DNA of 39,543 bases from Acidimicrobiia bacterium (GTDB taxonomy: Bacteria > Actinomycetota > Acidimicrobiia > Spongiisociales > SHLN01): positions 1 to 39,543 of the forward strand of contig JAOTYB010000004.1 in assembly GCA_029862065.1 (NCBI GenBank), written 5' to 3'. This document shows positions 11,110-11,730 of this stretch, piece after piece. Numbering within the stretch: the stretch's first letter is position 1; every line of letters starts with the position of its first letter. A program made the translations under genes and the position numbers. The notes below the pieces were generated by a model that worked only from the letters and a program-made list of their open reading frames with translations, did no database searches and was not told where the DNA came from.

Positions 11110-11165
11110 GCAGGACGCTTTGCGCAGGACGCAATAAGCAGTAAGCAGTAGGCAGTAAGCAATAT
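11110..11165. repeat. Left heptamer array (8 units, inverted relative to the right array)
   Basis: GCAGGAC|GCTTTGC|GCAGGAC|GCAATAA|GCAGTAA|GCAGTAG|GCAGTAA|GCAATAT, perfect 7-nt register. Confidence 0.9.
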
Positions 11166-11208
11166 CTGGGTCACGGGTCTTCTGTTGGCGGACCCGCAGT
11201 GGACGTCA

Positions 11209-11559
11209 GTGCGGCACCACAAGAGGTATGAGGTCTGGCGACTGGCACATCAACTAGTGATTGATGTCTATCGACTGACAGACGGTCTTCCAGCAGCAGA
11301 GCGTTATGGGTTGGCCACACAGATGAATCGAGCCGCAGTGTCAATATCCTCGAATGTGGCAGAAGGCCCGGGCCGAGGGAGTGACGCCGACTTCTGTCGA
11401 TTCCTCCTAATGGCCAATGGCTCGGCCAACGAGCTGGAGAGCCAGCTACTCATAACGCGGGAGTTGAGATTGGCCGACGGTGAAGCGGCTGCGAGACTCC
11501 TCGGGCAGGTCGACCAGGTCCGACGACACCTCATCAAGCTCATCAAGGCCGCCAGTTAA
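11209..11559 (+). CDS. Four-helix-bundle protein, S23 / 23S rRNA intervening-sequence protein family
   Basis: [82 protein letters not shown] matches the family layout. Start could be GTG 11209 or TTG 11185. Confidence 0.9.
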
Positions 11560-11560
11560 C

Positions 11561-11730
11561 GCCTACTGCCTACTGCCTACTGCCTACTGCCTACTGCTCC
11601 TGCCTACTGCCTACTGCCTATTGCCTACTGCGTCCTGCGTCCTGCGTCCTGCGTACTGCGTACTGCGTACTGCGTACTGCGTACTGCGTCCTAGCGTCCT
11701 GCGCAAAGCGTCCTGCGTCCTGCGTCCTGC
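11561..11730. repeat. Right heptamer array, about 24 units
   Basis: 5x CTACTGC, TCCTGC, 2x CTACTGC, CTATTGC, CTACTGC, 3x GTCCTGC, 5x GTACTGC, GTCCTA, GC, GTCCTGC, GCAAAGC, 3x GTCCTGC. Confidence 0.95.

Follow-up and report, generated by a model that had tools for sequence, protein, structure and literature searches.

To our knowledge, the S23 proteins ("four helix bundle protein") of many phyla have been without a known function since the 23S rRNA intervening sequences (IVSs) were first described. In the 23S rRNA IVS of Coxiella, which RNase III excises, tandem GACAGAT heptamers precede the S23 ORF and the ends form a stem of 28 bp; S23 itself forms a toroidal homopentamer (PMC4990558). The GGGAATC repeats of Xanthomonas and the GGGGAYT repeats of Nostoc have been treated as quadruplex-forming, with about 70 convergent heptamer-array pairs per Xanthomonas genome, in a paper in which a text search turned up no four-helix-bundle gene (PMC4692102). 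The TAACTGA repeats of Beggiatoaceae are intergenic and present in 2–6 copies, with no S23 link described, and their author states that no transfer mechanism is evident for intergenic heptamer repeats (PMC4679880). Repeats of this kind have been reported for years from cyanobacteria, Xanthomonas and Beggiatoaceae without a cause, and the open-access literature that we found, consisting of these two heptamer papers and the IVS paper, contained none linking S23 genes to dispersed heptamers. Here we describe an S23 gene and its flanking heptamers from an Acidimicrobiia bacterium (GCA_029862065.1), where the window refers to the whole stretch of DNA analyzed, 39,543 nucleotides of contig JAOTYB010000004.1.

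The S23 locus downstream of ppc

The S23 element is positioned between ppc and a small ORF and not in rRNA. The ppc (phosphoenolpyruvate carboxylase) ORF (8359–11100, + strand) ends in TAA, and its C-terminal 149 residues are 83–88% identical within the genus. A 5′ arm of heptamers (11110–11165), bearing AG on the + strand (GCAGTAA/GCAGGAC type), begins 9 nt 3′ of the ppc stop codon and is composed, in order, of GCAGGAC, GCTTTGC, GCAGGAC, GCAATAA, GCAGTAA, GCAGTAG, GCAGTAA and GCAATAT. The S23-family ORF follows (11209–11559, + strand; 116 amino acids, GTG start at 11209, stop at 11557–11559), and beyond it lies a 3′ arm bearing CT on the + strand (11562–11731; Tandem Repeats Finder: period 7, 24 copies, score 173), with CTACTGC units close to the gene and GTACTGC/GTCCTGC units outside. 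A sequence-only reading of this DNA had described 8 left and about 24 right heptamers of opposite orientation around the ORF, their placement 9 nt after ppc, and a perfect outer 23-bp inverted repeat (11110–11132 and 11694–11716) that includes the odd unit GCTTTGC/GCAAAGC, all of which we observe directly in the sequence. The inverted-arm score at the locus is 29, compared with at most 12 in 200 shuffles. Rfam returned no match across 5900–12100, and no target-site duplication was evident by eye at the ppc site. Elsewhere in the window, positions 28827–28895 are occupied by 15-bp tandem repeats (GCGGCCGGCTTCTTG; period 15).

The enclosed protein is a member of the S23/23S_rRNA_IVP family with a four-helix-bundle fold. 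It matches TIGR02436 (S23; E = 4.7e-32, 110 bits against a cut-off of 24) and PF05635 (E = 4.1e-32, 111 bits against a cut-off of 33.8), confirming the S23/IVS-type identity that had been assigned to it from sequence, and its AlphaFold model shows four helices (pLDDT 91.8). The fold had also been expected to be shared with S23 and with Avd of diversity-generating retroelements, and Foldseek recovered both, strongly for the S23 pentamer structures (2gsc from Xanthomonas campestris, TM 0.84–0.96 and 44% identity, and also 2rld, each entry with 5 chains) and more weakly for Avd (8ub7 and 4dwl, TM 0.71–0.83, about 9–10% identity). Neither the profiles nor Foldseek identified a catalytic fold, nuclease, transposase or Y1 (HUH) domain in the protein.

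Comparison of the orthologous loci within the genus revealed sites free of S23, the lack of which had been named as grounds against a mobile element. Downstream of ppc, S23 is also found in G004 and is missing from G002 and G003; G002 has four heptamer-like units at this position. In G003 (L200), three tandem copies of a repeat of about 105 bp fill the site of the window's S23. The second S23 site of the genome under study lies between an ABC ATPase gene and a lipoprotein gene, and here the S23 gene of G002 has the same orientation and a different unit, that of G004 points the other way, and the gene is missing from G003, where two arrays are present.

Heptamer arms and their dispersed copies

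Named genomes spanning many phyla supplied 80 S23 loci and viral contigs a further 23; the 80 were scored for period-7 arrays (score at least 8) and inverted arms (score at least 12). A period-7 array was found in 76% of 157 S23 flanks, compared with 2.5% of 363 control windows positioned 0.7–2 kb away and 1.3% of shuffles, and inverted arms were found at 73% of 77 S23 loci, against none of the control pairs and 2.6% of mismatched loci; in a wider set, 134 of 160 S23 loci (84%) have an array. Among the other periods, 14 follows 7, period 8 reaches 6% and none else exceeds 2.5%. The mirror-image layout recurs around S23 relatives in more than 12 bacterial phyla, with inverted period-7 arrays on both sides, arms usually of 4–5 units and a different unit at each locus, and the association of heptamers with S23 genes, whose lack in other genomes the sequence-only reading had named as a refutation, thus holds across phyla. 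The S23 copies of cyanobacterial plasmids also have arrays, including a Nostoc plasmid copy with GGGGAGT/AGTAGGG arms. On plasmids of Pseudanabaena and Anabaena (L233, L240), S23 and heptamer arrays fall within a CRISPR locus, flanked by cas6 and cas4; cas1d is annotated at L240, and the two arrays of L233 are direct rather than inverted. Units of 8 nt rather than 7 nt were observed at S23 loci L086, L096, L113, L128 and L140 (e.g., TCGATAAC in Sphingobacterium).

Phase-free alignment of the arm units yields the consensus YNAGKNN, in which the A and the G are the conserved positions and the last two bases are free; in the dereplicated set the EM score of this AG core is 126.9, compared with 94.4 ± 4.1 for permuted units. 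Direct AG/CT counts show a 5′ arm rich in AG at 45 loci and in CT at 5, and a 3′ arm rich in CT at 29 loci and in AG at 7; as judged from these counts, the strand of the arms is fixed relative to the S23 gene, with the AG strand 5′ and the CT strand 3′. Unit similarity climbs from 0.46 to 0.69 with S23 identity among pairs that share no neighbor genes (Mantel test, 0 of 1000 permutations), and S23 paralogues within one genome have different arm units. Formation of the array unit from the target site was rejected, since the units track the S23 protein at unrelated loci. In Xanthomonadales, S23 occupies one vertically inherited orthologous locus with CGGGAYY/GGGGACC arms, and both arms of this locus have switched together from GGGACCG to CGGGACT.

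The genome-wide dispersal of the arm unit cognate to the S23 gene was missed in the sequence-only reading. Within the window, a solo array of the cognate heptamer (GTCCTGC ×4, 6053–6080) is a dispersed copy with no attached gene, and the genome as a whole has 58 matches to NTNCTGC ×3 on 9 contigs, compared with 10 for the reversed pattern. All 10 genomes whose S23 arms are of the CGGGANN type contain CGGGANN arrays (10 to 479 matches), and none of the 7 genomes with different arms does; the reversed pattern, as a control, gives 0 or 1. Among 18 genomes, GAGTTCA was confined to G072 (51 matches) and CCAGGAA to G001 (18 matches), while CCGGCAT was found 56 times in the genome under study, 8 times in G002, whose S23 locus is orthologous, and once in G072. 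By these pattern matches, the heptamer that flanks S23 is also scattered through its own genome in each genome tested, and, apart from a few matches in two genomes, cognate units are missing where the S23 gene carries other arms.

Many of the dispersed arrays are one-sided. The dispersed copies of the window unit are in part S23-less elements, in which a conserved 33-nt core lies between inverted arms. These mini-elements (L036:2639-2731, L038:7298-7432, L040:3978-4074 and 9927-10175, L041:2331-2453 and G000:C113:11373-11444, G000 being the genome of the window) are composed of a GCAATAG-type array, the core with a small hairpin and a TTACTGC-type array, and when their arms are paired an A-C mismatch recurs regularly, once per heptad. 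Dispersed arrays are commoner in S23-positive genomes (29/40) than in S23-negative ones (17/59; p = 3e-5), in a comparison that ignores phylogeny and whose reversed-pattern control is not independent, since it also picks up arrays built from other heptamers. The genomes surveyed are drafts, in which repeats and genes can be hidden, and arrays lacking stop codons are read as ORFs in the high-GC drafts. Several S23-negative genomes, e.g., G013, G045 and G067, have many arrays, which shows that arrays are retained, or formed, where no S23 is detectable. Six genomes of genus g9 (G013, G045, G051, G059, G063 and G067) have many heptamer arrays and no S23 match.

Candidate mechanisms for the spread of the arrays

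The reading that we favor, with a probability of roughly 0.55, is a pairing of the REPIN/RAYT kind, in which a pentameric, non-enzymatic S23 would bind a heptamer family of its own and promote its spread at the level of DNA rather than RNA. The S23 pentamer would recognize the heptamer cognate to it, most probably where an array is exposed as a hairpin or as single-stranded DNA; host replication and repair would then amplify the arrays and seed new intergenic sites, and the S23 gene itself would travel between two arrays. Such a system would resemble RAYT with REPINs, but with a binding protein instead of a transposase, and S23 would probably manage, or help to spread, its own repeat family. 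As S23 has no nuclease, the chemistry must come from elsewhere. Among the observations that count against this reading, S23 is vertically inherited at one locus in Xanthomonadales, so that the gene itself need not move, and some S23-negative genomes are rich in arrays. We also suggest, tentatively and at somewhat less than even odds, that the system is a selfish or domesticated one in which a non-enzymatic, pentameric ring protein recognizes and propagates its own tandem heptamer, with protein–unit pairs that co-evolve and are mutually orthogonal.

The arms could instead act in RNA as an intercistronic IVS, pairing within a polycistronic transcript to place the S23 ORF in a loop, with RNase III cutting the stem, S23 protecting or regulating the excised RNA and the dispersed arrays providing further RNA targets. 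The long stem foreseen in the sequence-only reading is indeed predicted by RNA folding of 11101–11740, with the arms paired (−287.7 kcal/mol, z = −5.8; none of 20 shuffles reached this stability). The arms abut the neighboring frames (median 2 nt after the upstream stop and 8 nt before the downstream start), and in 34 of 48 clusters S23 and its upstream neighbor are read in the same direction (p = 0.0055), a lean that could indicate a role in RNA and to that extent counts against the DNA-level reading. The Coxiella 23S IVS, which has an S23 ORF and heptamers and is excised by RNase III (PMC4990558), and the participation of the fold relative Avd in an RNA–protein complex (8ub7) point the same way. 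Selection for an RNA stem would, however, favor G-U pairs, and the mismatches in 125 arm pairs, in a test that had no positive control, comprise 129 G-U and 144 A-C; with G-U in no excess, the balance leans to recognition at the DNA level, and the stem as a selected form, unsupported by the mismatch types, is kept here as a rival. S23 is moreover antisense to both neighbors in 12 of 48 clusters, the same site in the genus holds S23 in either orientation, and many of the dispersed arrays are one-sided and unable alone to form a stem. On this evidence we consider action as an RNA unlikely. The sequence-only reading had also derived the element from rRNA; no fetched S23 locus has two or more 23S rRNA marker words, so the rRNA copies of S23 may be a special case rather than the source.

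Neutral growth of the arrays by replication slippage and by template switching between inverted copies, with S23 a passive neighbor whose arms are converted to the common array of the genome, would be consistent with homogeneous arrays of variable copy number, with homogenization of both arms of a locus and with the arrays of some S23-negative genomes. We nevertheless judge it improbable, as it does not account for the presence of arrays at 84% of S23 loci and their near-absence 0.7–2 kb away, for the almost exclusive period of 7, for an array polarity that is constant relative to the gene, or for the distinct units retained by paralogues of a single genome. Slightly more doubtful again is that the arrays owe their movement to a different mobilizer, such as a Y1/RAYT transposase, a reverse transcriptase or some enzyme as yet unknown, with S23 as cargo or regulator. 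S23 has no catalytic fold and some enzyme must act, and the fold relative Avd partners a reverse transcriptase, but Y1_Tnp (PF01797) is absent from 98 of 99 draft genomes, that of the window included, and RVT_1 (PF00078), present in 17 of the 99, was detected neither in the genome of the window (a draft, 79% complete) nor in most of the array-rich genomes and is unassociated with arrays (6/17 compared with 28/82, p = 1). The two profile searches therefore lend no support to a RAYT/Y1 transposase or a reverse transcriptase as the mobilizer.

Comparison with described systems

Pairing each repeat with the S23 of the same genome yields one testable question, namely whether S23 binds its heptamer and controls where the arrays are placed. 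If it does, S23–unit pairs would constitute natural orthogonal recognition sets. Under the more tentative reading of a selfish or domesticated system, the heptamers of cyanobacteria, Xanthomonas and possibly Beggiatoaceae would share a common origin with one another and with the rRNA IVSs.

The 23S rRNA IVSs with an S23 ORF (Leptospira, Coxiella, Brucella) share with the window the protein family and the terminal inverted repeats, and in Coxiella also heptamers upstream of the ORF (PMC4990558). Unlike these, the loci described here lie outside rRNA, their arm unit is dispersed genome-wide, and their stem is a predicted one. Avd has the same fold and forms a ring pentamer, but in contrast to diversity-generating retroelements no reverse transcriptase was detected in the draft genome of the window. 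The GGGAATC and GGGGAYT repeats (PMC4692102) are likewise heptamer arrays, which the S23 arms CGGGAYY/GGGGACC and GGGGAGT/AGTAGGG resemble, and the reverse complement of the Beggiatoaceae repeat, TCAGTTA, fits the YNAGKNN consensus (PMC4679880). The REPIN/RAYT system (PMC3116915) similarly has a gene flanked by and matched to short extragenic dispersed repeats, often as inverted doublets, and its vertical retention is paralleled by that of S23 in Xanthomonadales; it differs in that RAYT is a Y1 (HUH) transposase associated with a palindrome, whereas S23 proteins are four-helix bundles that assemble into pentamers and lack a nuclease, and their repeat is a tandem heptamer array.
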